From a virus: DNA of 64,000 bases. The stretch covers positions 1 to 64,000 of IMG/VR virus record IMGVR_UViG_3300042564_005059; one strand, written 5' to 3'. Position numbers and translations under genes: made by a program. Positions 15,347 to 63,788 of this stretch are shown one piece after another. How positions within the stretch are numbered: the first letter of the stretch is position 1; the number at the start of each line of letters is the position of its first letter. Under the pieces are notes generated by a model that was not told the origin of the DNA, made no database searches, and worked only from the letters and a program-made list of their open reading frames with translations.

Positions 15347-16753
15347 ATGGTAATACGTACATATTTCGACAAAAATAATACTATAATCAGTAATACAATA
15401 GCAAACACAGGTTTAAATCCTGTTACTGAATTGTTTTATGGTGGTTATGATGGTATTGAAAAATATAGCAGATTTTTATTTCATTTTGATGAAACTAATT
15501 TAAAACAGTTGTACACTGGTGGTACTTATACTGATTTATCGAAATTAAAACATACGCTTAGACTTACAAACACTGCATCTTTTGATACTGGGTTATTAAA
15601 CGGTACTATGGCTGCCAAAGATAGAGCTACTTCGTTTGACTTAATACTCTTTAAAATAAACCAAGATTGGGATAACGGTGTTGGTTATGATTACGAAGTT
15701 CCAATATTAACTAGTGGTGATTACCTGTACTCAACAGGACCATCAAACTGGGTTAACCCAAAAACAGGTTTTAATTGGAGTGGTGGTACTGGTGTTTATT
15801 CTGGTTCACCTTCTAGTATCACAGTAACAACACAACATTTTGACAAGGGTAATGAAAATATTGAAATGGACATTACTGATTATGTTAATGGTGTGTTAAC
15901 TGGTAATACGAACTATGGTTTAGGGATTGCGTTTGCTAGAGGTTACGAACTTTTAAACACAACGGCACTTCAATATGTTGGTTTCTTTACTAACAACACG
16001 CAAACATTCTACGAACCATATATTGAAACAACTTATGAGAACCACATTAAAGACGATAGAAACAACTTTTTCTTAGATAAGAATAACAAACTATATCTTT
16101 ACGTAAATATTGGTGGAAATCCAACAAATTTAGACCAAATACCTAATGTAGATGTATACGATAGTAATGGTAATTTATTTAGCGCTTATACTTCTTCAGA
16201 TGTTAACCATGTTACGAAGGGTGTGTATAGTATTGATATAATTGTACCTACTAATAGTGGAAATGTAGAAACCATGTTTAATGATGTTTGGAAAAATGTT
16301 GTAATTAACGGAGTTTCTAGACCAGAATTATCATTAGATTTTGTAGTTAAATCCTCTTTTGAATATTATAATATAGGAACCAACGATATGTTACCTAAAA
16401 AAGTTGCTGTAAATATAAGCGGTATTAGAAACCAAGAGAACATATTAAGAGGTGACGTTAGAAGGGTTATTGTTTCTGCTAGAATACCATATACAGTAGA
16501 ACAAACACAATATATCGATAACTTACAATATAGATTATATGTAAAAGAAGGTGGTGCTGAATTAACAGTGATTGATTTTCAACCTGTAGAAATGGCCAAT
16601 AATTATTATTATTTCTTATTGGACACACCTAGTCTTATCCCTAACACATATTACTTAGATGTATTAGCAACATCAAATTTAGAAGTAACAACACTTAAAA
16701 ATGTTTGTCAATTTAATATTGTTAATCAAGTAGAATTAAGAAAAGGACAATAA
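15347..16753 (+). CDS. Probable tail/fibre structural protein with beta-sandwich domains
   Basis: 468 aa. The first half (KYSRFLFHFDETNLKQLY, then LKHTLRLTNTAS) resembles DNRLRE-type carbohydrate-binding-like beta-sandwich modules, and the second half looks like further immunoglobulin-like beta domains (SRPELSLDFVVKSSFEYYNI). It has its own ATATTTATAA motif and follows the hub gene, fitting a virion surface or tail protein. The binding target is unknown. Confidence 0.6.
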   Translation: MVIRTYFDKNNTIISNTIANTGLNPVTELFYGGYDGIEKYSRFLFHFDETNLKQLYTGGTYTDLSKLKHTLRLTNTASFDTGLLNGTMAAKDRATSFDLILFKINQDWDNGVGYDYEVPILTSGDYLYSTGPSNWVNPKTGFNWSGGTGVYSGSPSSITVTTQHFDKGNENIEMDITDYVNGVLTGNTNYGLGIAFARGYELLNTTALQYVGFFTNNTQTFYEPYIETTYENHIKDDRNNFFLDKNNKLYLYVNIGGNPTNLDQIPNVDVYDSNGNLFSAYTSSDVNHVTKGVYSIDIIVPTNSGNVETMFNDVWKNVVINGVSRPELSLDFVVKSSFEYYNIGTNDMLPKKVAVNISGIRNQENILRGDVRRVIVSARIPYTVEQTQYIDNLQYRLYVKEGGAELTVIDFQPVEMANNYYYFLLDTPSLIPNTYYLDVLATSNLEVTTLKNVCQFNIVNQVELRKGQ

Positions 16754-17091
16754 TGAAAAAATTTATAAAAAAATTACTAAGAGAGGAACTTATTGATGGT
16801 CAAGAAATGAATTCAGCGATGGAATCACTATGTAATAAAATGACTATAGGTTCATACACCGAAGCAATTAGATATGTAAAAGCTGCCACAAAAGATATGG
16901 ATGAAGCGACAAAGACAAAAGTAATGAAAAGAATTTACGCGCCTTTGAAAAATTTAAAAAACGAACAAATTGAAATTGATGGTGAAATAAAACAATATGG
17001 TATGTCTGGCGATTCAATGCCAGATGAAGCTGACACTTATTGGCATCAAATCCAATCAACATTATGTGAAATGGGTTCAGATTTTCAATAA
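16753..17091 (+). CDS. Leader (KKLLRE) protein 1, unknown function
   Basis: 112 aa. It begins MKKFIKKLLREELIDG, a basic amphipathic leader ending L-R-E that recurs at the ends of several unrelated proteins in this window. The remainder is a helical, acidic domain without recognised family. It is coupled by TAATG to the preceding virion gene, so it should be expressed late. I infer that the leader is a capsid-targeting tag cut after L-R-E by the gp21-like protease. Confidence 0.65.
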   Translation: MKKFIKKLLREELIDGQEMNSAMESLCNKMTIGSYTEAIRYVKAATKDMDEATKTKVMKRIYAPLKNLKNEQIEIDGEIKQYGMSGDSMPDEADTYWHQIQSTLCEMGSDFQ

Positions 17092-17095
17092 AAGT

Positions 17096-17127
17096 ATTGA
17101 CAAATAAAAAAAGTTTTACTATATTTA
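17096..17127 (+). promoter_or_regulatory. Bacteroidetes-type promoter of the zinc-ribbon gene
   Basis: The -33 box ATTG (17096-17099), a 20-base spacer and a -7 box TATATTTA (17120-17127, one mismatch to TAnnTTTG). Transcription would start about 17132-17134, giving a leader of about 100 bases. The -7 box is followed at once by the inverted-repeat arm at 17131-17145. Confidence 0.6.
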
Positions 17128-17130
17128 TAT

Positions 17131-18174: not shown

Positions 18175-18198
18175 AAAAAGGGCCATATGGCCCTTTTT
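18175..18198. terminator. Bidirectional intrinsic terminator
   Basis: AAAAAGGGCCAT/ATGGCCCTTTTT perfect hairpin between the convergent zinc-ribbon gene and the minus-strand 18198-18719 gene. Confidence 0.85.
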
Positions 18199-18719
18199 TA
18201 TTGTATTAATTTTGATTTTTTAAGCATATTAGGTGCCCATATACAACCAGAAGCTACATCCCACGTATAATACCAAAGCATTTCATGTCTAGCTTCATAA
18301 ATATATGGTACTATTTCTATACCACCATATTTTTCACTAACTCTTTTCCAATCAACATAATAATTATCAATAACATATTCTTCATTAAATAATTTTAAAT
18401 CTTCATAAGTATTAATTTTTAATAATCTACTATCATCAATATCCAAAAGAAATGCGTGGTCACGTTCCCATTGTGGCATTTCCATTCTTACCCAATCAAT
18501 CCATTCAGTACCTATAGAATACCATAATCCAAAAGGTTTAGCCATAGGTTTATCAGGTTGTTGTTCAGGTTTATATATTATCTTATCACCATCAACAGAA
18601 CCTCTAGCTTCCATCATAATTCTAGCATTAGGGTATTGGGTTCTAATTATTTCATAAATATCATCACTAACCTCGCTTAAAAGATTTTCTCGAAGTAATT
18701 GTTTAATCAAATTTTTCAT
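18198..18719 (-). CDS. Leader (KQLLRE) protein 2, W-rich unknown domain
   Basis: 173 aa. It starts MKNLIKQLLRENLLSE, matching the shared leader. The rest is a distinctive Trp/Tyr-rich domain: KPFGLWYSIGTEWIDWVRME, VDWKRVSEKYGGIEIVPY and WYYTWDVASGCIWAP. Repeated W and Y near conserved-looking D/G residues suggest an enzyme or toxin-like fold (an ADP-ribosyltransferase is one possibility), but I cannot assign it. It begins directly after the stop of the upstream nuclease gene in the same minus-strand operon. Confidence 0.6.
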   Translation of the reverse strand: MKNLIKQLLRENLLSEVSDDIYEIIRTQYPNARIMMEARGSVDGDKIIYKPEQQPDKPMAKPFGLWYSIGTEWIDWVRMEMPQWERDHAFLLDIDDSRLLKINTYEDLKLFNEEYVIDNYYVDWKRVSEKYGGIEIVPYIYEARHEMLWYYTWDVASGCIWAPNMLKKSKLIQ

Positions 18720-19365: not shown

Positions 19366-20127
19366 TTAACCAAATACTACATCACCCATAACACATAATT
19401 GTAAAAATATATCAGCATCGTTTGCATCGTATTGCTCATCAAGTATATTTTCCCAAACATCTGGGTAATCTCTTTTTATTATTGTTATTGCTTCTAGAAT
19501 TGAATCCATATCTACTGTACCCAACAATCCATTATCTGAATGTGTTTCAGTATAATCATCTTCGTCATATTCTTCTTCAGCATCATAAAATTGAACATAA
19601 CCACCTTTAAGAATATACTCACCAATAAGTTCAGATAACGGCTCACCCATTTCATTGGCTTTATAGCTAACTTCTTTAGGTAAATGACGTATCTCATACC
19701 AATAGTTAGAACCTCCTTCTAAAGCGTCTACAAATAGGTTTATAATGTCTTCTTTACCAAAGGTTCTAGACTCTCTAGCTTTAACTATATCATCTTCATA
19801 TCTTTTCCATGATAAATAATTTCTAGCTATTTCATGATACACAGCTTTTCTATCTCTATTTTTAGCAGCATTAATTGTATTTTGTAATGCACTAATTTGG
19901 TCTTTAAAAGCTTTTGGAATCCATTCTTGGTTGGCAAATTTTGGGTCGCTTATTACCTTATTGTAATGGTCAAGTTGTTTTTTAGCTTTAACAGCGCTTT
20001 CAGTATCAGATAAAACAAACTCTTTATATCTTCTATCGATTTCTTTGCGTTCCTCTGGTGTTATGTTTGTAAAACCAGCGATGTCTTCTAAACTTTCTCT
20101 AATTAACTTTTTTATTAATTTTTTCAT
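19366..20127 (-). CDS. Leader (KKLIRE) protein 3, acidic unknown domain
   Basis: 253 aa from the ATG at 20127 (a longer upstream frame lacks support because the leader peptide and promoter motif mark this start). It begins MKKLIKKLIRESLEDIAGF, with I-R-E at residues 9-11. The remainder is helical and acidic, including a D/E-rich segment (DAEEEYDEDDYTE). No family is recognised. It is the first gene of a minus-strand operon with the nuclease and leader protein 2, and its ATG is only 2 bases after an ATATTTATAA motif. Confidence 0.65.
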   Translation of the reverse strand: MKKLIKKLIRESLEDIAGFTNITPEERKEIDRRYKEFVLSDTESAVKAKKQLDHYNKVISDPKFANQEWIPKAFKDQISALQNTINAAKNRDRKAVYHEIARNYLSWKRYEDDIVKARESRTFGKEDIINLFVDALEGGSNYWYEIRHLPKEVSYKANEMGEPLSELIGEYILKGGYVQFYDAEEEYDEDDYTETHSDNGLLGTVDMDSILEAITIIKRDYPDVWENILDEQYDANDADIFLQLCVMGDVVFG

Positions 20128-20343: not shown

Positions 20344-22173
20344 TTATCTTAATTCATTGATGTTGAACGTTTGTACACCGTCAACTCTCAAGTGACCATA
20401 GAATCTGTTGTTAACCACTTTTTTAGCGTAACGAGTCATGATACCTTTCACTGGAGCGAAGTTGAATGGATTATACATTGTTGGAGTCAACTGTAATGGC
20501 ACATACGGAGCGTAGATGTATCCAGTATCCAATAATGATTTACCTTTGTGACCGATGATGATTGAGAATGCTGGTGCATATGGGTCACGATATACTTGAT
20601 ATCTACCACCTAATGAACCGATTCTTTCAATACCCATGTTGTATTGGTCTTGCTCAGGGTTAGCATCTGACACGTGGAAGTATTCTAAGTCGTCGAAGAT
20701 TGCAGAAATCTCTGAAGATACAACGATGAAGTTAGCACCACCTCTAAGTGTAGATTTATGGATTTGAGCTGAAATTTGGTTTAATTTAGTAATTAAAGTT
20801 TGGTTCCACTCTTTTTGAGTATATGGGCTCGCAGCAGAAGAAGCTTTTCTCCATCCATTGTAATCCCAACGTAATTGCCATGCAGCAGCTTTACGTAAAT
20901 CTCTAAGGATTTCACGGTCAATCTCAGCAGCAACTTGTTCTGATAACATTGCTGTTAATTCAGCTTCAGCATCGATGTTGTGGAATGCACTAACGTCTTG
21001 CGCTAACTCTGGAGACCATGTAGCTCTTAATTTTCTTTCTTCTACAGAAACAACAACTTCATCAAGTCTGAATGATACTTCACCCATTTCTGTTTCAAAC
21101 TCTAAACTAGCGTAAGAAGCATAAGCAGCAGTGAAAGCTGAGAATGATGAGAAAGTTGTAGCAGATGTACCAACATAACCGTCATAAGTAGCAGTACCAG
21201 CAGCAGCAGCACCAGTTCCAGCTGTTGTTCCAACTGGGTGTGATAAATCTAAATCTAACCAACAAACACCGTTACCGTCAGTTACTACGTTTGGACCAGT
21301 TACGATACCAACACCATATCTTTGAGTTACAAGTCTGAATGGAACATCTTGACCAGCAGTGATAACAGCGTTACCATCACGGTCTAAGAATGTAGCAGGT
21401 GCTACAACTTTTAATGAAGCTAAGAAAGATTCAGTATCCATTTGGTTACCATCTGGACCTGTTAATACTTCTCTAGTTGTACTAGGTGAAAATCCAGAAA
21501 TAGCAACGATTACATTTCTAACAGAACCGTCAGCAGCTGTAGGTAATACAGTACTAGCACCAGTTACAATTGAGAAAGTACCACCAGTAGTTAACGTATA
21601 AACTCTTACGTTTGGTGCGGTAATTGTGTTAATAGTAAGTGTACCTTTAGAGTTATCAAATAAACCATCGTTATAGAATAAATCGTATAAGTTTTTACCC
21701 ATCCATGGTGTTACAGCGCAACCATCAGTTGATTGAACACATGAAGGTAAACCATCGCGACCCATAGAAGTGTGAGCAGAAAAAGTTGGTCCATCTCCGT
21801 CATAATAATTACCTGGTTGACCTGAAGCGTTTACACGCTCAGAAGTTAACGGTACGAAGAAGAACAATTTACCAATTGGCATGTTCATAGCTTGTACAGA
21901 TACAACGTCATTAGCTAATAATTTAGAGAATACTCTACGAACGATTGGGAATACAACAGTTTCGAAAGAACCTGATGATGTAGCGTTAGTAGACTCAGTT
22001 AACAAGTTTGAAGCTTGGTTTTCATATAACTGAGCGATATTTTCTTTTACATGGCCTTTAAGTCCGTCTAAGAACCCTAAAGAATCCCATTTTTGTTGTG
22101 TTTCCAAACGGATAGCCTTCATGTGGTTTAATCCGATGTTACCAACTTGTCCTGAAGTCAATAAATGTGACAT
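20344..22173 (-). CDS. gp23: Major capsid protein (gp23-like)
   Basis: 609 aa, longer than T4 gp23 (521 aa). T4-like features include a helical N-terminal segment ending NLLTESTNATSSG, FPIVRRVFSKLLANDVVSVQ, RKLRATWSPELAQDVSAFHN, LSEQVAAEIDREILRDLRKA, and the C-terminal YAPYVPLQLTPTMYNPFNFA with GIMTRYAKKV. In T4, gp21 cleaves gp23 after an FLTE site at residue 65; here the equivalent L-T-E ends at Glu60. A long Gly/Ala/Thr-rich insert (about residues 170-330) accounts for the extra length and could form a surface domain. The terminator at 20294-20324 follows. Confidence 0.93.
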   Translation of the reverse strand: MSHLLTSGQVGNIGLNHMKAIRLETQQKWDSLGFLDGLKGHVKENIAQLYENQASNLLTESTNATSSGSFETVVFPIVRRVFSKLLANDVVSVQAMNMPIGKLFFFVPLTSERVNASGQPGNYYDGDGPTFSAHTSMGRDGLPSCVQSTDGCAVTPWMGKNLYDLFYNDGLFDNSKGTLTINTITAPNVRVYTLTTGGTFSIVTGASTVLPTAADGSVRNVIVAISGFSPSTTREVLTGPDGNQMDTESFLASLKVVAPATFLDRDGNAVITAGQDVPFRLVTQRYGVGIVTGPNVVTDGNGVCWLDLDLSHPVGTTAGTGAAAAGTATYDGYVGTSATTFSSFSAFTAAYASYASLEFETEMGEVSFRLDEVVVSVEERKLRATWSPELAQDVSAFHNIDAEAELTAMLSEQVAAEIDREILRDLRKAAAWQLRWDYNGWRKASSAASPYTQKEWNQTLITKLNQISAQIHKSTLRGGANFIVVSSEISAIFDDLEYFHVSDANPEQDQYNMGIERIGSLGGRYQVYRDPYAPAFSIIIGHKGKSLLDTGYIYAPYVPLQLTPTMYNPFNFAPVKGIMTRYAKKVVNNRFYGHLRVDGVQTFNINELR

Positions 22174-22203: not shown

Positions 22204-23445
22204 TTATCTTTTTTCAACTCTGCTAATCAAATCCATGATTCTCTTTGTTGAAGGGTCTACATATGCAGTGTTTTCTACAATTTGTTTTGAAACACCACTA
22301 GTAGCTTCTTTAATTATTTTATTTTCTAAAGATTCTGAAATTGGTTTTCTATCTTCCAATTCATTCGCAATAGTTCTATAAAGTTTTTTTGATTCTTTAA
22401 GGTTAGTTACATCATCAAATCTTTTAAGGATTGAATCTTTTTCACCTTTTGTAGTTGAGTGCTCCATAAACAATTTAGTTACGTAAGTTAAATTGCTGTT
22501 GAAAACGACTGTTTCTACTAATTTAGTTCTAAACTCTTTAAGAGCTTTTCTAAATTCAACATTTTCAGCTTTAAGTTTAGTAGCTTCAGTTAATAAGCTA
22601 TTATATCTTTTAGCAGTTTCAGAAACTAATTTTTTTGCCATAACTGTTTCGTTTACACTTTCAGCTTTTGGTTTTGGTAAATGAGCAGCACCACTTTTTC
22701 TAGCACCTTGTCTACCAGCATAACCTCTAGTGTAACCTAAAGATTCTTCCAATTCTTCTTCATCTTCTTCAGATTCTTCTTCTTCAGATTCTTCTTCTTC
22801 TTCACCAGCTTCGAATTCGTCAGATTCTTCGTCTTCTTCAGACTCATCTTCGTCACCCATTTCGATTTCATAGTCAAAATCTTCTTCGTCACCTTCTTCA
22901 TCAGTGTCTTCGATGTTGATATCTAAATCTTCTTCATCATCACCTAACATATCGTCAGCTGGTTCTAATTCTAATTCATCTTCTTCGTCTTCACCACCCA
23001 TGTTGTCAGCACCGTTAAGTTTAACTACATATTCTCCTGGTTCGCTAATGTTTAAGCGTAATTCATCGCCAACAATTTCGATTTCATCATCACCACTCAT
23101 TTTTTTGTAAATAGCAATAACTTCATCATCTGATGCTCCAGTCATATCAAGTTCGTCTGATGATTCAATATCATCCATTCCCATTTCGTCTTCAAGACCT
23201 TCTTCGTCTTCAAAACCTCCAACTTCAATATCACCTTCTTCTTCGCTTGGCGCACCCATGTCATCCATTGGTCCACCTAAGTCTTCTTCTTCATAAGCCT
23301 CTTCTTCTAGAGACTCTTTCACAACACCGTTAATTTCTTCTTTCGCAACAGAACGAAGTATTTCTTTGGTATTGGCATTAAGAGCATTTTTGATATGGTT
23401 AATATCTAAAAGTGCTTCTTCAAGTATAGATTTTTTATCTGCCAT
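22204..23445 (-). CDS. gp22: Prohead core scaffold (gp22-like), acidic
   Basis: 413 aa. A helical N-terminal part (ILEEALLDINHIKNALN) leads to an extremely acidic central section (about residues 50-230, mostly D/E with Gly and Ser), then a helical, basic-acidic coiled-coil C-terminal region, the profile of a T4 gp22-type scaffold. Position between capsid and protease genes matches the T4 order. Several L/I-x-E steps would let the protease digest it during maturation. Confidence 0.82.
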   Translation of the reverse strand: MADKKSILEEALLDINHIKNALNANTKEILRSVAKEEINGVVKESLEEEAYEEEDLGGPMDDMGAPSEEEGDIEVGGFEDEEGLEDEMGMDDIESSDELDMTGASDDEVIAIYKKMSGDDEIEIVGDELRLNISEPGEYVVKLNGADNMGGEDEEDELELEPADDMLGDDEEDLDINIEDTDEEGDEEDFDYEIEMGDEDESEEDEESDEFEAGEEEEESEEEESEEDEEELEESLGYTRGYAGRQGARKSGAAHLPKPKAESVNETVMAKKLVSETAKRYNSLLTEATKLKAENVEFRKALKEFRTKLVETVVFNSNLTYVTKLFMEHSTTKGEKDSILKRFDDVTNLKESKKLYRTIANELEDRKPISESLENKIIKEATSGVSKQIVENTAYVDPSTKRIMDLISRVEKR

Positions 23446-23565: not shown

Positions 23566-24291
23566 TTATTCTAATAAAAATTTATCTAAGTTATCGTTAA
23601 AATTTTCTTTTATAATTGGTTTTTTAACTTCTACGTTTTCAACATAAGGTCTCATTTCTTCAGCACTACGACCAATCCATGCATCTGGTGTTGATGGAGC
23701 TGTGACCACATCCCAACAAATTATTTCAAAATCATCTTGCACAATTTGTTCACCGTTTTTACCTTCTTTTAATGAACCTACACCTCTAGAAGAAACACCA
23801 ATTTTAATTCTGTTTCTTAATAAATTTGCTACTTCATCACCTTTGGTTGATACGATACCGTAGTTTATAAATCCTGGTGTCATTAAGATTTCCATCTTAC
23901 CCATAAGTGTATGTCCTTCCCACCAAGTTTCAATAATATTGTGTGAAATTCTATCGCCAGCGATAATAGAAGATTCTGGGTGGTCTAATTCACCTACAGC
24001 TCTACGCTCTTTTATGGCTTGTTGGTATAATTTGTCTTGTGATTTTAGAATAGCTTCTGGGTATACTCTACCGTTACGGTTTAGGATTCCGTATTTTTGA
24101 AGCACTACATAAACAATCAAAGGTTCAACAATGGCTAATTTATTTCCAGTATCTAATTTTTTTATTTCGTTTATGAAAGGTTGGTTTCTAGGTTCATCAG
24201 GTGATATATAACCAGCGTCATGCTCTATAAGGCCACCCCAACCAGTTTCACCTCTTTTTAATATCTTAAAATTTTTATAATTTATATCCAT
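23566..24291 (-). CDS. gp21: Prohead core protease (gp21-like)
   Basis: 241 aa. Serine protease of the T4 gp21/herpes assemblin clan. VGELDHPE places the catalytic His at about residue 104, and IGVSSRGVGSL the nucleophilic Ser at about 167. The N-terminal NRNGRVYPEAIL and C-terminal TAPSTPDAWIG blocks are also family-typical. T4 gp21 cuts after (L/I)-x-E; this specificity is why the LRE leaders and the capsid LTE site matter here. It sits between scaffold and core genes and has an ATATTTATAT motif upstream. Confidence 0.9.
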   Translation of the reverse strand: MDINYKNFKILKRGETGWGGLIEHDAGYISPDEPRNQPFINEIKKLDTGNKLAIVEPLIVYVVLQKYGILNRNGRVYPEAILKSQDKLYQQAIKERRAVGELDHPESSIIAGDRISHNIIETWWEGHTLMGKMEILMTPGFINYGIVSTKGDEVANLLRNRIKIGVSSRGVGSLKEGKNGEQIVQDDFEIICWDVVTAPSTPDAWIGRSAEEMRPYVENVEVKKPIIKENFNDNLDKFLLE

Positions 24292-25448: not shown

Positions 25449-26231
25449 TTAGTTATCGTTATTTAAAGTTAATTTTAAACTAACTAATTTAGATATGTTT
25501 TTAGAAAAATCTTCATTTAACTCCACTTTGTCTCTTAATAATTTATCTTTAACACGTAACAATTTGTCTTTTGTTTCTAAATCCGATTCTGTTAATTTAT
25601 TATCAATTAAATCAATACATTCTCTAGATATTTTTGAATACACTTCTATTTTCTCTTCATCAGTAGATTCAATTAAAACAGTAATAACTTCTTTTTCAGT
25701 TTCAGTTATTGATTCACTATATTTCTCATTATATTTTTCAACAAGAATAGAACTTAACATACTATTTGGAACACCATAAGATTCTGTTACCACTTTTTCT
25801 TTATTTGCAAGAATGTAATCAACAATATCTGAAATAGCTTCAATTATAGTATCAATATTCTTAGGACTTCTTTCAGTAAAAATTAATTTAGAAATATCCT
25901 CATGTAACTTTTCAGTATCATTAGAAACCACAGAATTATCTTCAAATAAAATTGGTTTAGCTAACTTTAAATTAGCTTCTTGTAATTCTTTTTTTGAAAA
26001 TTGGTTTAATAAAGCTATATTTTCTTTAACAAATTCTGTAGCTTTTTCTCTATTAGATTCAATTTTATTTTCGATATTTTCGTAAACCAAAAATTGTGTT
26101 TTTAACGCTTTGTTTTCTCTAAGTGTTTTTATATATTTTTTGAAGAGTATCTTTTTAGATTCATCGTTTGAAACTATCCCTTCTGCAATTATTTCACTAA
26201 AAGCGTTTTTTATTTTTCCAAAATTTTGCAT
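25449..26231 (-). CDS. Prohead core/internal protein candidate with IAE leader
   Basis: 260 aa from the ATG at 26231; the upstream in-frame extension would run into the promoter-like motif and the portal stop. It starts MQNFGKIKNAFSEIIAEGIV: a helix ending I-A-E, the same kind of end as the T4 capsid-targeting sequence MKTYQEFIAE on internal proteins. The rest is a highly helical Glu/Lys-rich protein. Its place between portal and protease matches T4 small core genes (67/68), so an internal prohead core role is inferred. Confidence 0.6.
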   Translation of the reverse strand: MQNFGKIKNAFSEIIAEGIVSNDESKKILFKKYIKTLRENKALKTQFLVYENIENKIESNREKATEFVKENIALLNQFSKKELQEANLKLAKPILFEDNSVVSNDTEKLHEDISKLIFTERSPKNIDTIIEAISDIVDYILANKEKVVTESYGVPNSMLSSILVEKYNEKYSESITETEKEVITVLIESTDEEKIEVYSKISRECIDLIDNKLTESDLETKDKLLRVKDKLLRDKVELNEDFSKNISKLVSLKLTLNNDN

Positions 26232-26275: not shown

Positions 26276-28345
26276 TTATTCATCTAACATTTTATTTATG
26301 TCATTTATCATATTATTAACATCTTCGTTAATCTTTACGTTTTTATCGTAAATTTTAACTCTAACATCATGTTCTTTGTCATTTTTTTTAACCGACTCTA
26401 CCAACACATCAACAAATCTTTTTTGATATTTTTCAGCCCTTACTTTTAATTGATTTTCTAATTTTATTTTTTGTTCACTTAAAAGTTTTTGTGTTTTATT
26501 TAATGATTCCGATAAAGCTTCTGGTGTTTCAGGTGTTGTACCAGCATCAGGTGTTGTCTCAGCTCCAGCCGCAGGTTCTTCTGCACCAGCTTCTGCTCCA
26601 AAATCTAAATCACCACCAGCTTCTGCGTCTTCACCACCAGCTTCTGCTCCAAAGTCTAAATCTTCACCACCTAGACCACCACCTCCGAAGCCGCCTCCAC
26701 CGCCGCCTCCAAAGCTACCACCTCCACCGCCGCCTTCAGCGCCAGCTTCATCACCACCTTGAGCACCTTTAAGAGCTGCTTGGTAATCACCATATATTTT
26801 ATCAACAGCGTCAAACATACCAGTATGTTTAATAACAGCTGATGTATTTTGTAATTCAGCGGATGCTGCTTTTTCCATTCGTTGTTCTAGTAAATCTTGT
26901 TTAATTTCATCGTCAGACCAACCCAATATATCTCTATGAGCTCTAGTCCATGACATAACACCAAATCCGTTACCAATATCAGATACAGAATCTTTAACTA
27001 GTGAAACTTTTACCTGCATATGTTCAACCTTAAGCATTTCAGCTTGTGTGGATGGGTTATTTAACGTAAGTGTAAAGTTATCTAAATCATCTTCAAAACC
27101 TAATAAGAATAAATGAATAATTGCTAATTTATTTAGTTCTTGTAACATAGATTGTTGAATACGGTTAATTGTTCTCGAAAAACGAATATCTTGTAAAGCA
27201 AGATTTTTACCCTCTCCAGTTGCTTCTTCGAAACCTAAAAATGGTTTCGGTACTCGCAACGCTGTAAATAAATTTCTCTGTAAGTATTCAATATCTGCAA
27301 TTTGGTCTAAGTTTGAAGCTCCAGGCAACGTATCAATTGGGTTAGGTGCGCTTTCATCCCTAACTGGGATAAAGAAATCTTGGTCATTAGAAAGCTGATT
27401 ATATCTTAAATCAATTTGACCAGTTTGAGGGTCAACAATTGGCATACGCTTAAATCTATCAGCAATAGCGTTTACATATTGTTCAACATCAGCGTCATCA
27501 ATGTTACCTACATATATTTTATAAACACGTCTTTCTGGTGCTCTAGTAACACGATATACAAGCATTGAATCTTCAGATAAGATAAGTTGTTTCCAAATAC
27601 GTCTAGCTTTCTCTAAAACACTGGTACCGTATGGTAAACGTCTGTCATCACCTAACAAACGAAAATGTGCAATTTGCCATGAATTAAATTCAACGTCTCG
27701 CCCTCTCCAGTAAAATTTAACTCTATCTCTATTTTCAGATTGGTCGTCAGAATATTCTCTACCGCTAACTAAATCATATAAACCAGCTTCTCTACGTTCT
27801 ATCTCGTAGTTAGGCATTTGTTTTGCGGAAATAATACCTTGTCTATCGTTGATATTCAAATAAACAAAATTATCACCGTATTTACAAGTATTTCTTGTCC
27901 ACATAGGTAATGTAGTATGTAAATCCAAACGGTTAAAGAATAAATCTTCAAGGATACCCTTAACACGCTTACTATCAGAATAAATGTTAAGAACTCTACC
28001 TCTGTCATTAACAGTAGTTGATTCTTCCATCATTACGTCTAAAGCGGCTGCGATTGTTGGGTAAAATTCCATGGCTTCAAAATCAGCGTAAGAACCAACA
28101 CGTGTAGTTTCGTAATTTATAGATTGTTGAAACAACCCATTTTCAACACGTTTCCAAGTACTTTGTAAATACTTGTTTTGTTGAGCTTGTAATTTTGCTG
28201 TTTCATATTCTTGTTTGCTAGTAGTTTTAAGCAATTCATTACCACCCAAATTAAATCTTTGTGTTGTTTGTTTTTGTGGTGGATTATAATCAGGGTTAAC
28301 AACTCTGTTTAATTTTTGAAATATTGTTAAATTATCTTTTGCCAT
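26276..28345 (-). CDS. gp20: Portal vertex protein (gp20-like)
   Basis: 689 aa, longer than T4 gp20 (524 aa). Portal hallmarks: EFYPTIAAALDVMMEESTT, MWTRNTCKYGDNFVYLNI, YRVTRAPERRVYKIYVGNID, FIPVRDESAPNPIDTLPGA and LRVPKPFLGFEEATG. The extra length is a C-terminal low-complexity section (about residues 535-600) of Gly runs and DFGAEAG-type acidic repeats, then a coiled-coil end. It forms the head entry ring through which DNA and any internal proteins pass. Confidence 0.92.
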   Translation of the reverse strand: MAKDNLTIFQKLNRVVNPDYNPPQKQTTQRFNLGGNELLKTTSKQEYETAKLQAQQNKYLQSTWKRVENGLFQQSINYETTRVGSYADFEAMEFYPTIAAALDVMMEESTTVNDRGRVLNIYSDSKRVKGILEDLFFNRLDLHTTLPMWTRNTCKYGDNFVYLNINDRQGIISAKQMPNYEIERREAGLYDLVSGREYSDDQSENRDRVKFYWRGRDVEFNSWQIAHFRLLGDDRRLPYGTSVLEKARRIWKQLILSEDSMLVYRVTRAPERRVYKIYVGNIDDADVEQYVNAIADRFKRMPIVDPQTGQIDLRYNQLSNDQDFFIPVRDESAPNPIDTLPGASNLDQIADIEYLQRNLFTALRVPKPFLGFEEATGEGKNLALQDIRFSRTINRIQQSMLQELNKLAIIHLFLLGFEDDLDNFTLTLNNPSTQAEMLKVEHMQVKVSLVKDSVSDIGNGFGVMSWTRAHRDILGWSDDEIKQDLLEQRMEKAASAELQNTSAVIKHTGMFDAVDKIYGDYQAALKGAQGGDEAGAEGGGGGGSFGGGGGGGFGGGGLGGEDLDFGAEAGGEDAEAGGDLDFGAEAGAEEPAAGAETTPDAGTTPETPEALSESLNKTQKLLSEQKIKLENQLKVRAEKYQKRFVDVLVESVKKNDKEHDVRVKIYDKNVKINEDVNNMINDINKMLDE
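26584..26662. repeat. In-frame direct repeat in portal gene
   Basis: Two 28-base copies (26584-26611 and 26635-26662) differing at one base, offset 51 bases (17 codons), encode the repeated DFGAEAG(G/A)E units; a GC-rich Gly-coding patch adjoins (about 26685-26765). Confidence 0.8.
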
Positions 28346-43380: not shown

Positions 43381-43393
43381 AATTGTTGTTTTA

Positions 43394-43403: not shown

Positions 43404-43443
43404 CTACTGTTTTACTTTTCTACTCAGTTATTATCTAATTTTT

Positions 43444-43809
43444 TTACTCCGTTATTAAAAAGAAAGTAAAATCGCTATCAACTAAGTTTTCTAAATTACC
43501 ATAAGTAGCATACCATCCAGAAGAATCGTTAAACACAATGTATATGTAATTTTTATCGTCAAATATTTGATAATATAAACTATATTCAGTATTTGGTTGA
43601 AATTCCCAAGACATATCTGCTCTAGATTTCGTACATAAAACTTTACCTAATAAAACAACTTCCCGTTCTATAACTTCATCAACAAACTTTATCTTACAAG
43701 TCGTTCCAGTACGGTCTTTTTTTTCTACTCCGTTATCCAAGATATCTTGTAGAAGGTCTGTGTATTGTTTATCTAAGGTGTTACCCTTTATCGCATTTAT
43801 TTTTTCCAT
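43444..43809 (-). CDS. Thymidylate synthase N-terminal fragment fused to an unrelated tail
   Basis: 121 aa. Residues about 12-38 (LDKQYTDLLQDILDNGVEKK, then DRTGT) are a clear ThyA N-terminus, and then the sequence departs into a beta-rich domain (WEFQPNTEYSLYYQIFDDKN) unlike ThyA. It lies between two GIY-YIG genes upstream of the intact thyA, so it looks like a co-opted relic of a homing event. It could still be expressed as a small protein. Confidence 0.6.
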   Translation of the reverse strand: MEKINAIKGNTLDKQYTDLLQDILDNGVEKKDRTGTTCKIKFVDEVIEREVVLLGKVLCTKSRADMSWEFQPNTEYSLYYQIFDDKNYIYIVFNDSSGWYATYGNLENLVDSDFTFFLITE

Positions 43810-44341: not shown

Positions 44342-44353
44342 TTTTATTTTTAT

Positions 44354-44363
44354 TGATAAATAT
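44354..44363 (-). promoter_or_regulatory. ATATTTATCA variant of the recurrent motif
   Basis: Minus-strand ATATTTATCA ends 12 bases before the ATG at 44341. Confidence 0.45.
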
Positions 44364-44364
44364 A

Positions 44365-44394
44365 TCAAAAAACTCCATTATCTAATTTATTCAT
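44365..44394 (-). pseudogene. Nine-codon thyA 5' relic (MNKLDNGVF, stop)
   Basis: Its first 15 bases are identical to the first 15 bases of the intact thyA (ATGAATAAATTAGAT); it then jumps to an NGV-like codon set and stops. It lies directly upstream of homing endonuclease 1, so it is probably a footprint of the same homing process that left the 121-aa ThyA fragment. Confidence 0.5.
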
Positions 44395-49670: not shown

Positions 49671-50508
49671 CACTAAGATATTATTAAGAGAAGAAATCGC
49701 TTTAAACGATAAAAAAATGTTATTGTCAGAACATTCCTTGATGATGATTCAAAATTCATCATATGTTAAAAATGTGTTGGGTATTGACACAACGTTAAAT
49801 GAAAATTATCCTCTAGGTATTAGAAAATTAATAATTGAACAACAAATTATTATTGAAAATCTTTTAGATTCGATAAACGGTTATTTGGGTAATTTGGTAC
49901 AAAAGGGTAAAGAAAAATCTTTAAATTTTATAAAATCAGTAAAAAATTTAAAAGAATTAGCTATCTTATTTAAAGATATTTTGTTGGACCCTGAATTAAT
50001 GAATGAAGCAATTAAAAATGTTAAAAAATCATTAACCGAACAATTAAATAATTTTAAAAATAATATAAATAAAATATTAACCAACACAAAAGTTACTATT
50101 CAAAATTTTACGGATAAACTACAAACGTTTTTAAATAACGTTTTAACTTATTCTAATGATGTGTTAAACAAAGACGGTTGGGTACCATTTTTAACTATGT
50201 TGGGGTTAGCTGTATTATTAACTTGGGTCAACAGAAAATGGTTAGAAGTCATTTTAAACAATATAACTGAAGGATTAAAAAAAATAGATGGTGTTGTTAA
50301 TTTATTTAATAGTCTAAAAGACTTGATAAAAACAGCTGTATCAAATCTAGGTATTGAAAATATATTTGCATGGTTCACTAGTTTAGGAACTGAAACATCT
50401 GGTATCGGTATTATATTTACAATATCTGAAATTATATTGATAATATCTGAAATACTAATGCCAACAGTACAAACAATAACAACAAGATTTAATTTACAAA
50501 AAACATAA
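49663..50508 (+). CDS. Leader (ILLRE) protein, membrane-active candidate
   Basis: 281 aa. It starts MYNTKILLREEIALNDKK, with L-R-E at residues 7-9. The rest is long helices (LNNFKNNINKILTNTKVTI) plus a hydrophobic segment WVPFLTMLGLAVLLTWVNRK (about residues 168-187) and a second hydrophobic C-terminal run (IGIIFTISEIILIISEILM). It overlaps the peptidase gene by 8 bases. A role in membrane insertion or penetration is a guess from the hydrophobic segments. Confidence 0.55.
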   Translation: MYNTKILLREEIALNDKKMLLSEHSLMMIQNSSYVKNVLGIDTTLNENYPLGIRKLIIEQQIIIENLLDSINGYLGNLVQKGKEKSLNFIKSVKNLKELAILFKDILLDPELMNEAIKNVKKSLTEQLNNFKNNINKILTNTKVTIQNFTDKLQTFLNNVLTYSNDVLNKDGWVPFLTMLGLAVLLTWVNRKWLEVILNNITEGLKKIDGVVNLFNSLKDLIKTAVSNLGIENIFAWFTSLGTETSGIGIIFTISEIILIISEILMPTVQTITTRFNLQKT

Positions 50509-50510
50509 TT

Positions 50511-51719
50511 ATGAAAAATACAATCAAAGGTGGTAAATCAGATAACATGTCACTACAAGACATTGCCAACAAATTTGATGTATCTGTTGAAAAAATACAA
50601 GCGCAATTAAAAAAAGGGGTTAAAATTGAATCGGAGCATACTGACAATAAAGAAAAAGCAAAAGAAATTGCTATGGACCATATATCTGAATTTCCAGACT
50701 ATTATGATAGACTTGAAAAAATGGAAAAAGGTGCGAATAAAAAATGGGAAAATGGTAAAGAAAAAACTAATGAAGGTATAAAAAAATCTATAGCCGCAGC
50801 CTCATTAGGTTTAAGTTTAATGGGCAACCCCCAAATAACCAAAGGCGCAGACATAACGCCAATCAGTCAAACACAAACACAAAAAGTTTTAGCTCAAGTA
50901 AATTTTGCATCCTCTCAACCAATAGATAACCCAGATTTAGATTTAGTTCATGGCGCCTTAGGTTCAAATAGATTACAAGACGATTTTGAAAAAAGAGTTG
51001 AAGACGAATTGAAAAACCAAGTAAAAAACGGTAATAAACCAGATGTCGCTAACATACAAGTAAGAACATATATACAAGGTGATAAAATCATAACAAAAGC
51101 GTCATGCGACATTGTCCAATCTGTAGATGGGATAGCTTATACACATTTTACAACTAGAGGTTCTATTGGTTCTAATTATGTTCAAAGACATGATAAACAA
51201 ATAAATGGTTTGATTAATAAATTAGAAAATCATTATGGTGGTGTAGCTAAACAAGTTGGCAATTCAATTGAAATTTCATTTAAACTATATGGTAGTACCA
51301 TATCTTATAAACAAAGTTTTTTTGTTGCATCTGATGATAAAAATGCAATAAAAAATCAAGACTTACAACAAATTACTGGTACTGATATTAATAATTTAAG
51401 AGACAAATTAAATACCGAAACAAAAAACATTTCTGTCGATATTAATTCTATTAGTGTAGATATGAAAAATTATAAAGTATCATATAAAACTGGTGACGTT
51501 GAGATACATAAAATTTCTTTATTGTTTGATGATTCTGGTAATTTAGATGATAGGTTAAAAACGATAAAAGCTAAAAACCCAACATTTAAAGAAATAAAAA
51601 GAGGTAAAATAAATAATTTGGATTGGGCTATAAGTGTAATACCTTATGAAGAAATAAAAATGAACGAGTCTCAAAAAAAATTAATTAAAAAACTTATTAG
51701 AGAAAACTTAGGTTTTTAA
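50511..51719 (+). CDS. DUF5661-like protein with C-terminal KKLIRE tag
   Basis: 402 aa. Residues about 13-72 match the DUF5661 type (SLQDIANKFDVSVEKIQAQL, then VKIESEHTD and DHISEFPDYYDRLEKME). Next come a short Ala/Leu-rich segment (KKSIAAASLGLSLMG, about 91-105) and a beta-rich middle of unknown fold. The C-terminus is ESQKKLIKKLIRENLGF: the same tag as the N-terminal leaders but at the other end, with I-R-E followed by only four residues. It follows the ILLRE gene after 2 bases. Confidence 0.62.
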   Translation: MKNTIKGGKSDNMSLQDIANKFDVSVEKIQAQLKKGVKIESEHTDNKEKAKEIAMDHISEFPDYYDRLEKMEKGANKKWENGKEKTNEGIKKSIAAASLGLSLMGNPQITKGADITPISQTQTQKVLAQVNFASSQPIDNPDLDLVHGALGSNRLQDDFEKRVEDELKNQVKNGNKPDVANIQVRTYIQGDKIITKASCDIVQSVDGIAYTHFTTRGSIGSNYVQRHDKQINGLINKLENHYGGVAKQVGNSIEISFKLYGSTISYKQSFFVASDDKNAIKNQDLQQITGTDINNLRDKLNTETKNISVDINSISVDMKNYKVSYKTGDVEIHKISLLFDDSGNLDDRLKTIKAKNPTFKEIKRGKINNLDWAISVIPYEEIKMNESQKKLIKKLIRENLGF

Positions 51720-55899: not shown

Positions 55900-56223
55900 T
55901 CAATACAGATTTTTTATCTTTTCATAGAGTCTTTTTAGCTCTGGAGACATGTCTTTTATATCAGAAATAACTTCTATACACATGTCTTTTGGGTTTGAGT
56001 TATCGGTTAATTTATATTGTAGTTCTTTTAATTTTAAAGTATTTTTTATACTGTTTTTTAATTCTAAAACTACTTGATTGTAAGTTGCCCAAGCTTCTTT
56101 TACTATTGTTGAACCAGTGATTAAATTTTCAGTCAAAACTTCTTCGTATTTGTGTTCTAGATACGTTTCAAATTCACCGTAGTGTTCTCTTAATATTTTT
56201 CGTATTTTAGGCTTGAGGTCCAT
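55900..56223 (-). CDS. Leader (RKILRE) protein, paralogue of 55416 gene
   Basis: 107 aa. Starts MDLKPKIRKILREHYGEFET, with L-R-E at residues 11-13, then an all-helical domain sharing the L-T-D-(N/G)-x-NP block with the 55416 protein. The paralogue lacks the leader, which suggests the tag is an add-on. It lies 2 bases after the 56226 gene in the same direction. Confidence 0.6.
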   Translation of the reverse strand: MDLKPKIRKILREHYGEFETYLEHKYEEVLTENLITGSTIVKEAWATYNQVVLELKNSIKNTLKLKELQYKLTDNSNPKDMCIEVISDIKDMSPELKRLYEKIKNLY

Positions 56224-56225: not shown

Positions 56226-56567
56226 CTATCGCATAGGTACATGTTTAGATAACATATTATCCTCACTAATTTTACCAGAAACCCAATCTTTTATAACTTG
56301 TTGGGTGAATGATTCACTAAGACCGTATTTATAAAGCATGTATTCATAAAGTTGTTTAGCTGAGATTAACTCTTCATCAGCGTTAACTTTAAACATTGTT
56401 TTACCAAAATACTCACCACCCTCGCGAACATAATTTTCAGTTGGGGTGTAGTTTGCATTTAAAAAGTCTTTCATTTCTTTTACCATTCTAGCATGCATAG
56501 TGTTTTCAGCCAAAATAGATTTAACTTTATTAAATTGCGATTCCGTAATTATTAATTTTGTTTTCAT
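56226..56567 (-). CDS. Small helical protein with ILAE-ending N-terminus
   Basis: 113 aa from the ATG at 56567, directly after a motif that ends 2 bases before it. It opens KTKLIITESQFNKVKSILAE, a helix ending L-A-E at residues 19-21, similar in kind to the T4 capsid-targeting end (IAE) though not to the KKLLRE leaders. The body is helical with basic and acidic patches. No family is recognised. Confidence 0.6.
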   Translation of the reverse strand: MKTKLIITESQFNKVKSILAENTMHARMVKEMKDFLNANYTPTENYVREGGEYFGKTMFKVNADEELISAKQLYEYMLYKYGLSESFTQQVIKDWVSGKISEDNMLSKHVPMR

Positions 56568-59395: not shown

Positions 59396-60250
59396 ATGAA
59401 ATTATTTTTCAAAAAAAATATCATAATAGAAAACTATAACCTTACCCCAGCATCAGAAAAACTTGATGAATTGGAAGAGGCTGCAAACGCATTGGGAGAT
59501 ACTATCACCAAAGATTTAAAAATCCCAAAAGAAGTTCTAGATAGTTTTCAATTGAAACCTTCACTTAACCCAGAATTCTGGGATAAAGAAGAATTAAGAA
59601 AAGATATCAGCGACCAGCTTATGCTTATAGCACAAGAATTTTTTGATGGATTAAAAAGCCCAGAAAATCTTGTAATTAAAGATGTAATATTCACTGGAAG
59701 TCTAGCCAACTATAATTGGTCTAAATACTCAGACGTTGACTTACATGTAATTGTAGATTTTGAAACCGTTGACACCGATGAAGAATTTATAAAACAACTA
59801 TTCGATTCATATAAAAACCTTTGGAACAACAACCATAACATAACTATCAAAGGGTATGACGTAGAATTGTATTTACAGGACATTAGAGAAACTCTTTCAG
59901 CTAACGCGGTATATTCTGTCAAAAGAAATAAATGGCTCCTTAAACCTGAAAAAGAGAAATTTAAACTAAATAGAAACATAATCAAAAAGAAAGCGTTAAC
60001 TTTTATCGATAAACTTAAAGATGTAAAAAAAGTATACGCGGAAGAAGAATATCAAAAAGCACTTGACAAATCACAAGAACTAAAAGATAAAATAAAAAAA
60101 TATCGTAAGAGTGGATTAGAAAGCGGTGGTGAGTTCTCACTAGAAAACCTAGTCTTTAAGGTACTTAGAAGAACACCATTTATGGAAGTCTTAAATGACA
60201 TAAACTCTAAGTCATACGACCAAATAATGTCGTTAAAAGAAAACATATAA
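59396..60250 (+). CDS. Nucleotidyltransferase-fold protein
   Basis: 284 aa. FTGSLANYNWSKYSDVDLHV (about residues 99-118) is a GSx(n)SDxDL active site of DNA polymerase-beta-type nucleotidyltransferases, and DVELYLQD supplies a third acidic residue. It transfers a nucleotide to an unknown target. The N-terminus KLFFKKNIIIENYNL has I-I-E at residues 9-11 and a basic lead-in, reminiscent of the leaders. It ends at a shared terminator. Confidence 0.75.
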   Translation: MKLFFKKNIIIENYNLTPASEKLDELEEAANALGDTITKDLKIPKEVLDSFQLKPSLNPEFWDKEELRKDISDQLMLIAQEFFDGLKSPENLVIKDVIFTGSLANYNWSKYSDVDLHVIVDFETVDTDEEFIKQLFDSYKNLWNNNHNITIKGYDVELYLQDIRETLSANAVYSVKRNKWLLKPEKEKFKLNRNIIKKKALTFIDKLKDVKKVYAEEEYQKALDKSQELKDKIKKYRKSGLESGGEFSLENLVFKVLRRTPFMEVLNDINSKSYDQIMSLKENI

Positions 60251-61516: not shown

Positions 61517-61542
61517 TATTTATGTTTTTAGTTATGTTTTGC

Positions 61543-61573
61543 AAATATACTAATTATTTTATTTTAATACAAA
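61543..61573 (-). promoter_or_regulatory. Bacteroidetes-type promoter
   Basis: Minus strand: TTTG (61573-61570), 19-base spacer, TATATTTG (61550-61543), upstream of the PcfJ-like gene. Confidence 0.7.
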
Positions 61574-61574
61574 T

Positions 61575-61607
61575 AAAAATGCTCACAAATTGTGAGCATT
61601 TATTTAT
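61575..61607 (-). terminator. Intrinsic terminator after 61608 gene
   Basis: AAATGCTCACAA/TTGTGAGCATTT hairpin, T-rich flanks on both strands; directly after the 61608 stop. Confidence 0.85.
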
Positions 61608-63788
61608 TTACATTCTATCTAAGATATAATCTTTATCATCTGGTATGTACTTGTCAATAATTGGTTCCATATAAGGATACAACTCTTTTTTGTATAAGAT
61701 ACTAACCATATCATATTTATCCAATTGTCTAAGTACAGAATCTGGTAAGTATTGAATTACCTTAGGAACTGATTTAATCAAATCAATAATATAATTCATT
61801 CCAATCTTATGATATAACTGACGAGCAAGTATTGGTTTACTATATATCATACTGTATATTCTATACTCACCCATAGCGTCAAGACGCTCCTCAGGTATAT
61901 AGTTTAAGGTTTTTGGGTTTTTCACTATAATGTCTTTTAAATCATAATCAGCTAGCATGTCTATTTTATCACCTAAGTATTTAAACAATGTTGGTTGTTG
62001 TATTAACAATTTTTCTAAATCGTAGCTACTAGTAATAAATCTTAACAATTCTGGTTTATAAACAAAAGCCTTACCTTTACCATCGTATAAAAGAGAAAAT
62101 CTAAGTTTTTTAAATTCCTCTTCAGTGTCTATTGTGATATATTTATCCCTAATTAAAAAAGGTAATATTTCAGTAAATTGTAATCTTTCTAACAATTCTT
62201 GTTTTCTTTCTTCTGGTAAAGAATCAAGTATCACTTTATAAAGTTTTGGGTTAACTTCTAACATATTAGCCAATTGCCAATCTTGTATTTCTTTAAAATT
62301 ATCTAACCTAACTAAGTATTTAGTTAAATCAGGGTTGGTGTTTATTAAGATTTGTATTTGATACTTTGAAAATTTATTTAAGTTTTCTTTAACTTCTGGG
62401 TTTTTAATAATACTAGGGTCAACAACTAACCCTAAAAATGCGTCATATTCATTAGAAAAATCATATCTGTTTGCATTTATTTTAGCCTCTGGTAATATTT
62501 TTTTAATTAGGGTAACTTCATCGTAGTCTAATAGTTTTTCATTAATACCACTATTCCAATTATCATTCGCCCCATTGTTGTGACCATTTATTCTTAACAT
62601 CATGTACTTTTTAAGAGCATCTGGTGTCATAAATTGATAAAAAACATCCTCAAGTACCTTGTTGCTATCAATCTTTAATTTTATAATACGATTTATTTGA
62701 GATGGTGATAACACTTCCTCATATAATTTTGTGTCGTAATATAAATTCACAAAATACCCAGCCTCAATAAGACTATCCATAGTTTCTTTTCTTAGACTCT
62801 TTAATTGCTCTAAGTTAAATGCCATTCTATTTGCTGCTAAATCTCTAATAAAATCACCAGAGGTAATAGGCGAACCGTTTATAACCAATTTTCCAGTATA
62901 TCTATCTATAAGTTCTTGTAAGTCATCAGCAATAAAATTATCTTTAAGCTTATCCAACAATTCAGAATACTGACGTTCGTCATCAGTAATCTCTCTATAT
63001 GGGAAATATTCTTCAAGCCCTTGTAAATTAGGTAACTGTTGCTCTATATCATACCAAGACATTGCGTCACGTTGACCACCACTTCTTTCACCAGTGTTGC
63101 TTCTATCAGCAATAGCATACGCATCACGACCACCATAATTCAATATAACCAACTTGTGCTCATCACCATTAACATTCTTTTGCAACACAAAATAAGGTGT
63201 GGCACCATAGCTAAGTCTATACGTGTTATAATAATTAGCATCAGCTTTGGTTATACACCAAGTTTCACCCATACCATATCTTACACATTTAGCCTTGGTA
63301 TCAGTGTTTAATATAAGGACTTCGTCATCCTCATACATTATATCCTCTTGATTAGGTTTGTATATCGTAGCACCAGTACTAACTTCCTCATCTGAAATCC
63401 AACGATTGTTGTTAACCAAATCGACTAGTGTTTTCTCTAAGTCTTTAAATGAAAATGGTCTTGCTGCGTCACCCATAGAAACTATGTTGTTTATATAAGC
63501 ATCTAAGTATTTTTTGGCTAAATCTTTGTTATCTGGAAAATCCTTGGTTTTTATCATTTCTTTCAATATTCCATCATACCATTTGTTAAATGTTTGCTCA
63601 AATTGTTCTTTGGTTTTATATTGCATGATGTCGCCGAAGAATGACCTAAACAAAAAAGCAATACCCAATTTGTTTATCATATCATCAGAAGAATCGTTAA
63701 ATCTTTTTGTTATGGGTTCAATAACCCTTTTGCCATAAAATTCAACAACCAACGATTCTCTAAGTAATTTTTTTATTATACTATTCAT
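61608..63788 (-). CDS. Leader (IIKKLLRE) protein, large, with WC-motif domain
   Basis: 726 aa from the ATG at 63788 (the longer frame overlaps the preceding gene). It starts MNSIIKKLLRESLVVEFYGK, with L-R-E at residues 9-11. Residues about 150-240 hold a WC-motif domain: TDTKAKCVRYGMGETWCITK (W177-C178), then YFVLQKNVNGDEHKLVILNY. The remaining 450 residues are helical with repeated leucine/aspartate-rich units (for example DNFKEIQDWQLANMLEVNPK), possibly a helical repeat scaffold. The size and tag make it the largest candidate internal protein of the window. Confidence 0.65.
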   Translation of the reverse strand: MNSIIKKLLRESLVVEFYGKRVIEPITKRFNDSSDDMINKLGIAFLFRSFFGDIMQYKTKEQFEQTFNKWYDGILKEMIKTKDFPDNKDLAKKYLDAYINNIVSMGDAARPFSFKDLEKTLVDLVNNNRWISDEEVSTGATIYKPNQEDIMYEDDEVLILNTDTKAKCVRYGMGETWCITKADANYYNTYRLSYGATPYFVLQKNVNGDEHKLVILNYGGRDAYAIADRSNTGERSGGQRDAMSWYDIEQQLPNLQGLEEYFPYREITDDERQYSELLDKLKDNFIADDLQELIDRYTGKLVINGSPITSGDFIRDLAANRMAFNLEQLKSLRKETMDSLIEAGYFVNLYYDTKLYEEVLSPSQINRIIKLKIDSNKVLEDVFYQFMTPDALKKYMMLRINGHNNGANDNWNSGINEKLLDYDEVTLIKKILPEAKINANRYDFSNEYDAFLGLVVDPSIIKNPEVKENLNKFSKYQIQILINTNPDLTKYLVRLDNFKEIQDWQLANMLEVNPKLYKVILDSLPEERKQELLERLQFTEILPFLIRDKYITIDTEEEFKKLRFSLLYDGKGKAFVYKPELLRFITSSYDLEKLLIQQPTLFKYLGDKIDMLADYDLKDIIVKNPKTLNYIPEERLDAMGEYRIYSMIYSKPILARQLYHKIGMNYIIDLIKSVPKVIQYLPDSVLRQLDKYDMVSILYKKELYPYMEPIIDKYIPDDKDYILDRM

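Follow-up and report, generated by a model that had tools for sequence, protein, structure and literature searches.

In bacteriophage T4, the internal head proteins IPI-III and Alt carry a capsid-targeting sequence (CTS), a short N-terminal leader with an (L/I)-x-E site that is cut by the prohead protease gp21 (PMC9958956, PMC5694885). The CTS is established in T4 and carries foreign proteins there, as cited in PMC5694885 and PMC9024508. In SPN3US, phiKZ and 201phi2-1, a prohead protease likewise removes propeptides from internal head or ejection proteins, with several sites per propeptide, but most of these propeptides exceed 100 residues, the site motif differs, and a short peptide common to several cargoes is not described in the available portions of PMC5694885 and PMC10052503. 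An N-terminal segment of P1 DarB, of which 30 residues are sufficient, similarly brings either the protein itself or a reporter into the head, although no N-terminal consensus is reported for the Dar system and P1 is described as being without a separate scaffold (PMC9024508). Polyvalent proteins (Iyer, Burroughs and Aravind, 2017) are packaged in virions and mix peptidase, ADP-ribosyltransferase (ART) and nucleic-acid-acting domains (PMC5512222). Here we analyzed a 64,000-nucleotide stretch of viral DNA (the window; positions 1 to 64,000 of the 95,427-bp IMG/VR virus record IMGVR_UViG_3300042564_005059), in which a short basic peptide ending in (L/I)-R-E, hereafter the tag, is shared by otherwise unrelated proteins.

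The tag resembles the T4 CTS as a short (L/I)-x-E leader placed on several proteins in a phage with an S77 prohead protease and a Gp23 capsid protein, and an ART-like cargo would be a parallel to T4 Alt. It differs from the CTS in its number of cargoes (about 19, compared with a handful in T4), in its leader sequence, in having copies inside proteins and at C-termini that are flanked by a site at either end, in the several leader families per phage, and in the leaders swapped between phages on one cargo. Unlike in polyvalent proteins, the domains found here are mostly separate proteins or are joined via a tag with predicted cut sites, and would therefore be separated in the head; injected peptidases and ARTs are within the repertoire proposed for polyvalent proteins (PMC5512222). 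A search of the open-licence literature found no previous account of these leaders.

The comparisons below make it likely that the tag is a capsid-targeting propeptide working like the T4 CTS. Its short basic amphipathic helix would bring internal (ejection) proteins into the assembling prohead, and the S77 protease would cut after (L/I)-x-E at the end of the tag, or on both sides where the tag is internal or C-terminal. Cleavage would free the mature cargo, to be packed with the DNA and then injected into the next host. Because the address and the cutting signal would share one short module, cargoes could recombine behind, before and between tags; these include metallopeptidase-like, GNAT-like, ART-like and kinase-like proteins, a CCA-adding enzyme, a polynucleotide kinase-phosphodiesterase and DUF5661 proteins. 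The sequence evidence supports a CTS-like system that would operate as a recombining cassette and polyprotein address, in which several leader sequences would do an equal job.

Tag copies on unrelated proteins

All eight peptides listed in an earlier note on this DNA were located at their positions in the window (Table 1). A position-weight scan of the 95-kb record returned 12 strong copies at 23-33 bits, the next best window reaching 14.5. The further copies belong to the products of 63791-64393 (minus strand), 65926-67512 (minus strand, at both ends), 67561-67890 (plus strand) and 68528-69304 (plus strand). The copy at 49663, which is shorter and was not part of the matrix, was the weakest of the eight; no gene of its type lies at the corresponding locus of G001, a longer close relative (306,463-bp contig) with a 99% identical 18198-type product. 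When seeds were left out one at a time, at most two other windows scored higher for 8 of 11 seeds, and all of these were tags. In G001, 19 of the 367 open reading frames (ORFs) carried the tag at 16 bits or more, while 20 shuffled proteomes gave four windows in total (0.2 expected). Chance or Lys/Leu composition as the source of the tag was ruled out by the weight-matrix scan together with the shuffled proteomes. The tag was absent from all 24 homologues of Flavobacterium phage immuto genes for replication, metabolism, head shell and tail.

The copies are N-terminal, C-terminal or internal. As had been proposed, the bodies under the common peptide are unrelated, no homology between them being detected by blastp. 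In an ungapped comparison of G001 N-termini from which homologous-body pairs had been removed, the tagged proteins grouped together, and control windows at residues 51-75 gave zero pairs. Homologues of the 61608..63788 product that are 68-72% identical bear the leader MKNIVKQLL(R/K)E. As a separate observation, the product of 64448-65899 of the record (L001:4448-5899) may be an ArdC-like protein, with a HEITHELLHQ motif and no Pfam match; it ends in a degenerate C-terminal tag, IKE↓SLRKKLFI (the arrow marks the predicted cut), which L011 keeps as IKE↓SIRKRFIP.

Leader replacement and cassette exchange

Evidence that the site matters apart from the remainder of the leader came from the product of 67561-67890, relatives of which were found in 37 viral contigs and in immuto. 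The bodies, from FAKNRLAGAEK onward, are 48-100% identical among relatives, whereas their leaders fall into approximately seven unrelated types, including MKHTIKQLLRE↓N, MIKLLQLLTE↓A, MKVQELKQLINE↓E, MKIIITE↓S, MIKLKDILSE↓A and MKLENLLYE↓Q. The [LI]xE motif was present in 25 of the 26 distinct leaders, and the sole leader without it, MIKLLQLLTRGEE, differs from the usual one in the manner expected of a local frameshift. In a further contig (L037), the same body is fused behind another domain via KKFNE↓A. A metallopeptidase-like cargo has the junctions LLRE↓ALGVP in G001, IISE↓ALGVP in L045 and KSFE↓AVGVP in G011. For the CCA-adding enzyme, the site is ILRE↓G in G001 and VFLE↓N in G011, and the bodies share 38% identity from residue 25 in the former and residue 21 in the latter. 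The Glu of the leaders thus aligns at the leader/body junction, and the (L/I)-x-E site is kept independently of the rest of the leader, with one exception among S77-positive relatives (L162).

Tags also stand between and behind cargoes. In L010, one 733-residue protein joins the 65926-type and 63791-type bodies via INE↓SKVRVKNMLRE↓N; in L011, the 65926-type body is joined to the W-rich domain via INE↓SKIVIKNILRE↓N; and in the contig G000, the 65926-type body ends in LNE↓SKAFIKNMLRE↓NFK, as if a second cargo had been lost. The AlphaFold2 (AF2) model of the fused 733-residue cargo was of low confidence (predicted local distance difference test, pLDDT, 33). In the DUF5661 protein, the C-terminal tag comes after LKE↓S in G001 or MNE↓S in G000, and the immuto homologue has an N-terminal leader instead. 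The product of 48903..49670 comprises a GNAT-like half, a tag following MKE↓, and a metallopeptidase-like half with HELVHHKQ, the two halves having separate homologues. C-terminal and internal tags accordingly have an xE site of their own ahead of them (LNE↓S, INE↓S, LKE↓S, MKE↓N or MKE↓D), so the tag could be cut out at any position. Exchange is also evident in the slot after the 67894-type gene, which holds a protein of 258 residues in G000 and an unrelated one of 162 residues in L011, their similarity being limited to the 13-residue tag; in G001 the slot lacks a tagged gene, and in immuto it is occupied by a DUF5661 protein that has a leader of its own.

These arrangements bear on the possibility that the tag is an uncleaved docking helix tying the cargo to a phage or host structure such as the shell, scaffold, tail or membrane, with L-R-E as a binding face and not a protease site. 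Such a role would suit the basic amphipathic helix, predicted at intermediate confidence, and the tags at extreme C-termini. We regard it as unlikely: lineages differ in the helix sequence yet retain [LI]xE, the Glu falls in line at the boundary between leader and body, internal and C-terminal tags have a further xE site ahead of them, and the leaders are associated with the S77 protease as described below.

Association with the S77 protease and site specificity

The W-rich domain of the 18198 product was found in 72 viral contigs and also in actinobacteriophages, where the protein begins at the domain itself, without a leader. After the removal of duplicates and of S77-negative contigs under 30 kb, [LI]xE lay within 26 residues in 10/11 W-rich proteins from S77-positive contigs versus 10/36 from S77-negative ones (Fisher p = 3e-4, indicative only). 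The corresponding figures for an N-terminal extension were 11/11 and 11/36 (p = 4e-5, likewise indicative). Among the locus proteins (homologues not collapsed), [LI]xE peaked at residues 5-14 (25% versus about 7%); [LI]xD, [LI]xQ, [LI]xN, [FV]xE and [AST]xE showed no such peak there, and [LI]xK showed a smaller rise. When compared with per-protein shuffles, [LI]xE at residues 6-15 was enriched in G001 (z 4.9), immuto (4.0), G004 (5.0), G009 (3.9) and T4 (2.2), and the phages without a detected S77 protease gave z values of -0.2, -0.8 and -1.0 (Cellulophaga phages phi14:2 and phiST and Flavobacterium phage FCL-2). The motif alone is a poor single-gene predictor, occurring early by chance in exonuclease, DnaG and endolysin homologues, and prediction requires a leader family plus the site.

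Blind clustering of leaders recovered the T4 IPII/IPIII leader MKTYQEFIAEA, carried by two adjacent T4 genes (65.4-66.4 kb). By the same method, immuto yielded the families FDLKKFLVENKLT, RMQKLAGIITES and MKKSQLRxII, and G004 yielded KRMQKLAGLITE(A/S) and variants on seven proteins, while no families were found in three phages without detectable S77. G001 has a second family, KxNIKKANLLxE↓QRYL, and a third, IIxTE(S/T)Q..., both with [LI]xE. The observation made in the earlier note thus holds, with the correction that the tag is one of several leader families in the phage. The note's reading of the tag as a cleavable leader, on cargo that would be loaded, cleaved and injected, gains support from the survival of the site through leader swaps, the Glu at the junction, the S77 association and the exchange of cargoes.

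A basic amphipathic N-terminus is a usual mark of a membrane-targeting peptide. The tag could, by this resemblance, target a non-head site (the inner membrane, a replication compartment or secretion), with (L/I)xE incidental to a helical leader; the cargo enzymes might work in the cell that makes the phage, and the 49663 product has hydrophobic segments. This appears quite improbable given that [LI]xE, and none of the five related motifs, peaks at residues 5-14, that the S77 association holds, that a T4 internal-protein leader was recovered by the same blind method, and that the tag is also used internally and at C-termini.

At the DNA level, copies of the tag share 69% identity within the tag and 38% over the 40 nt upstream, and the codons for its invariant Ile, Leu and Glu vary by synonymous changes, which indicates that the copies have the peptide, and not a promoter, in common and points to selection acting on the peptide. 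A promoter or DNA repeat was ruled out as the explanation on these grounds. The sequence CTTAGAGA recurs in most copies, so the tag module probably spreads by recombination; yet shared DNA without function (from a hot spot of recombination, a repeat tied to a promoter, or gene duplications that left the N-termini behind), for which this repeat would speak, is highly improbable in view of the unrelated upstream DNA, the varying codons, the C-terminal and internal copies, and the unrelated leaders that retain the site on one body.

Several points weigh against a CTS-like propeptide. Prohead-core binding, cleavage, packaging, injection and the action of cargo in the host are all deduced from sequence, and gene starts are first-ATG calls. 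The similarity to T4 MKTYQEFIAE is confined to the terminal (L/I)xE, so the tag would be a functional variant of the T4 CTS and not a member of the same family. The capsid sites of relatives are VxE (LVSE, IVSE, LVVE) and not [LI]xE, and the S77-positive relative L162 lacks an early [LI]xE. The Fisher p-values are indicative because the contigs are mutually related, which favors the association, and several S77-negative contigs are fragments; several positives without S77 appear to be pieces of T4-like phages, and this weakens the association. The CCA-adding enzyme and the polynucleotide kinase-phosphodiesterase could equally act in the producing cell. Finally, G011 (a 344-kb contig with loci L067-L084), in which no S77 or Gp23 was detected, is enriched in [LI]xE as well (z 3.7) and has leader families of its own on many proteins (MRYIKLYEEF, MKHLRRFNE and FLxEA, with nine proteins bearing M(R/K)xIK(L/M)(Y/F)EEF-type leaders), so the link with S77 is not exclusive. 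The site of these leaders differs, and G011 would have either a different protease with a different site or an undetected relative. It was dropped as a negative control once blind clustering had revealed these leaders.

Head genes, cargo enzymes and implications

The gp21-like protease claimed in the earlier note is borne out by a significant S77 match, together with a T4-type portal and a Gp23 capsid protein, and so is the L-T-E site in the capsid protein (Table 1). The predicted propeptide site, LLTE↓S at residues 57-60 (21994-22005), lies near the position of the T4 gp23 cut, at which 65 residues are lost (PMC9958956). The protease has a possible self-cleavage site, IIKE↓N, at its C-terminus, and the scaffold candidate is weakly similar (27%) to its positional counterpart in immuto.

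Table 1. Tagged genes, genes with other leaders and head genes in the window (arrows mark predicted cuts)
Position	Strand	Feature	Tag, leader or site	Match or remark
16753..17091	+	112-residue tagged ORF	MKKFIKKLLRE↓E, N-terminal, 16753-16785	no Pfam/PHROG match
18198..18719	-	173-residue tagged ORF, W-rich domain	MKNLIKQLLRE↓N, 18687-18719	phrog_8582
19366..20127	-	253-residue tagged ORF	MKKLIKKLIRE↓S, 20095-20127	phrog_2355 on C-terminal half
20344..22173	-	Gp23-type major capsid protein		PF07068 4e-71
22204..23445	-	acidic scaffold (gp22-like) candidate		assigned by position between protease and capsid genes; no Pfam/PHROG family match
23566..24291	-	S77 prohead protease (gp21 type), predicted cutter		PF03420 6.5e-25; phrog_207 7.6e-39
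25449..26231	-	head-module ORF	start MQNFGKIKNAFSEIIAE↓G	compare T4 FIAE↓A
26276..28345	-	T4-type portal (gp20)		PF07230 5.8e-74
28395-30170		terminase
48903..49670	+	two-domain tagged ORF	FKPMIKSLLRE↓G, internal, 49266-49298; GMKE↓ before tag
49663..50508	+	281-residue tagged ORF with hydrophobic segments	MYNTKILLRE↓E, shorter tag, 49663-49692
50511..51719	+	DUF5661 protein	QKKLIKKLIRE↓NLGF, C-terminal, 51672-51704; MNE↓S before tag	PF18905 8.7e-15
55900..56223	-	107-residue tagged ORF	MDLKPKIRKILRE↓H, 56185-56223 (contains KIRKILRE)
56226..56567	-	ORF with other-family leader	MKTKLIITE↓SQFNKVKSILAE↓N	counterpart in G001 groups with two other proteins of that contig
59396..60250	+	nucleotidyltransferase-like ORF	leader MKLFFKKNIIIE↓N, single instance outside clusters	PF01909 2e-4; phrog_36119 1.7e-46 from residue 50
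61608..63788	-	726-residue tagged ORF, WC-motif domain	MNSIIKKLLRE↓S, 63756-63788
63791..64000	-	3' part of tagged ORF 63791-64393	MKNIIKKLLRE↓Q	start outside window

Significant matches among the cargoes were obtained for the CCA-adding enzyme (PF01743, 2.2e-37), for DUF5661 and for a protein combining AAA_33 with a tRNA-ligase phosphodiesterase domain (2e-9, 3.4e-6). The metallopeptidase-like cargoes were recognized by motif only (HELVHH, HELTHW, HELKHA), as were the GNAT-like and kinase-like bodies. The AF2 model of the W-rich protein had a mean pLDDT of 92; in it the leader forms a helix at residues 2-13 (pLDDT 66-75), followed by a break at 14-18. Its best PDB hits were ART folds, though weak (probability 0.25), and it gave one ART-PolyVal hit among viral models (0.89), making the W-rich body a candidate divergent ART. 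The W-rich family has no sequence match among solved structures and no Pfam family, and one protein of another leader family gave a weak ART-PolyVal match below the cut-off (0.0028).

Other features were noted along the DNA. A large Clp/ClpB-type AAA ATPase-like ORF (46353-48854, plus strand) lies immediately upstream of the tagged cluster, and a head-region protein (37377-38480, minus strand) has a dockerin/EF-hand-like calcium motif (PF00404, 4.3e-6). G001 contains two small additional Gp23 (PF07068) matches distant from the capsid gene (226610-226774 and 278534-278647), one of them in an ORF beginning MKKYIVKYLTENYF, which would be either fragments or minor capsid-like proteins. The region 41289-44368 (minus strand) holds a thymidylate synthase gene (41289-42563), a GIY-YIG-like homing-endonuclease ORF (42523-43380), a truncated thyA-like ORF (43444-43809) and another endonuclease-like ORF (43781-44368), probably reflecting homing-endonuclease invasion with partial duplication. 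The run of genes at 207-7169 (plus strand) was judged by eye to be glycosyltransferase-like and nucleotide-sugar genes (UDP-galactopyranose mutase-like, GDP-mannose dehydratase-like and epimerase-like).

More broadly, there is a reasonable though far from certain case that in large T4-like phages, at least one of which infects Flavobacterium, interchangeable lineage-specific leaders form a general, recombining address-and-cut code that marks fast-changing injected enzymes, tRNA-repair enzymes among them, and that the module serves as a double-cut linker by which fused cargoes become polyproteins processed in the head. The tRNA-repair enzymes would fit early counter-defence. Virion mass spectrometry was not found in the Baltic Flavobacterium phage paper PMC7077304, which does not name immuto. 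If the tag is a capsid-targeting propeptide, the head contents of large phages would become testable by one proteomics run on an existing isolate, injected proteins, which are mostly unannotated, would be readable from sequence alone by a short leader plus (L/I)xE, and dozens of candidate host-takeover or counter-defence enzymes (peptidase-, ADP-ribosyltransferase-, kinase- and acetyltransferase-like, and for tRNA repair) would be predicted in uncultured phages. Such a tag would also explain how phages exchange their arsenals and provide an addressing peptide for protein packaging.

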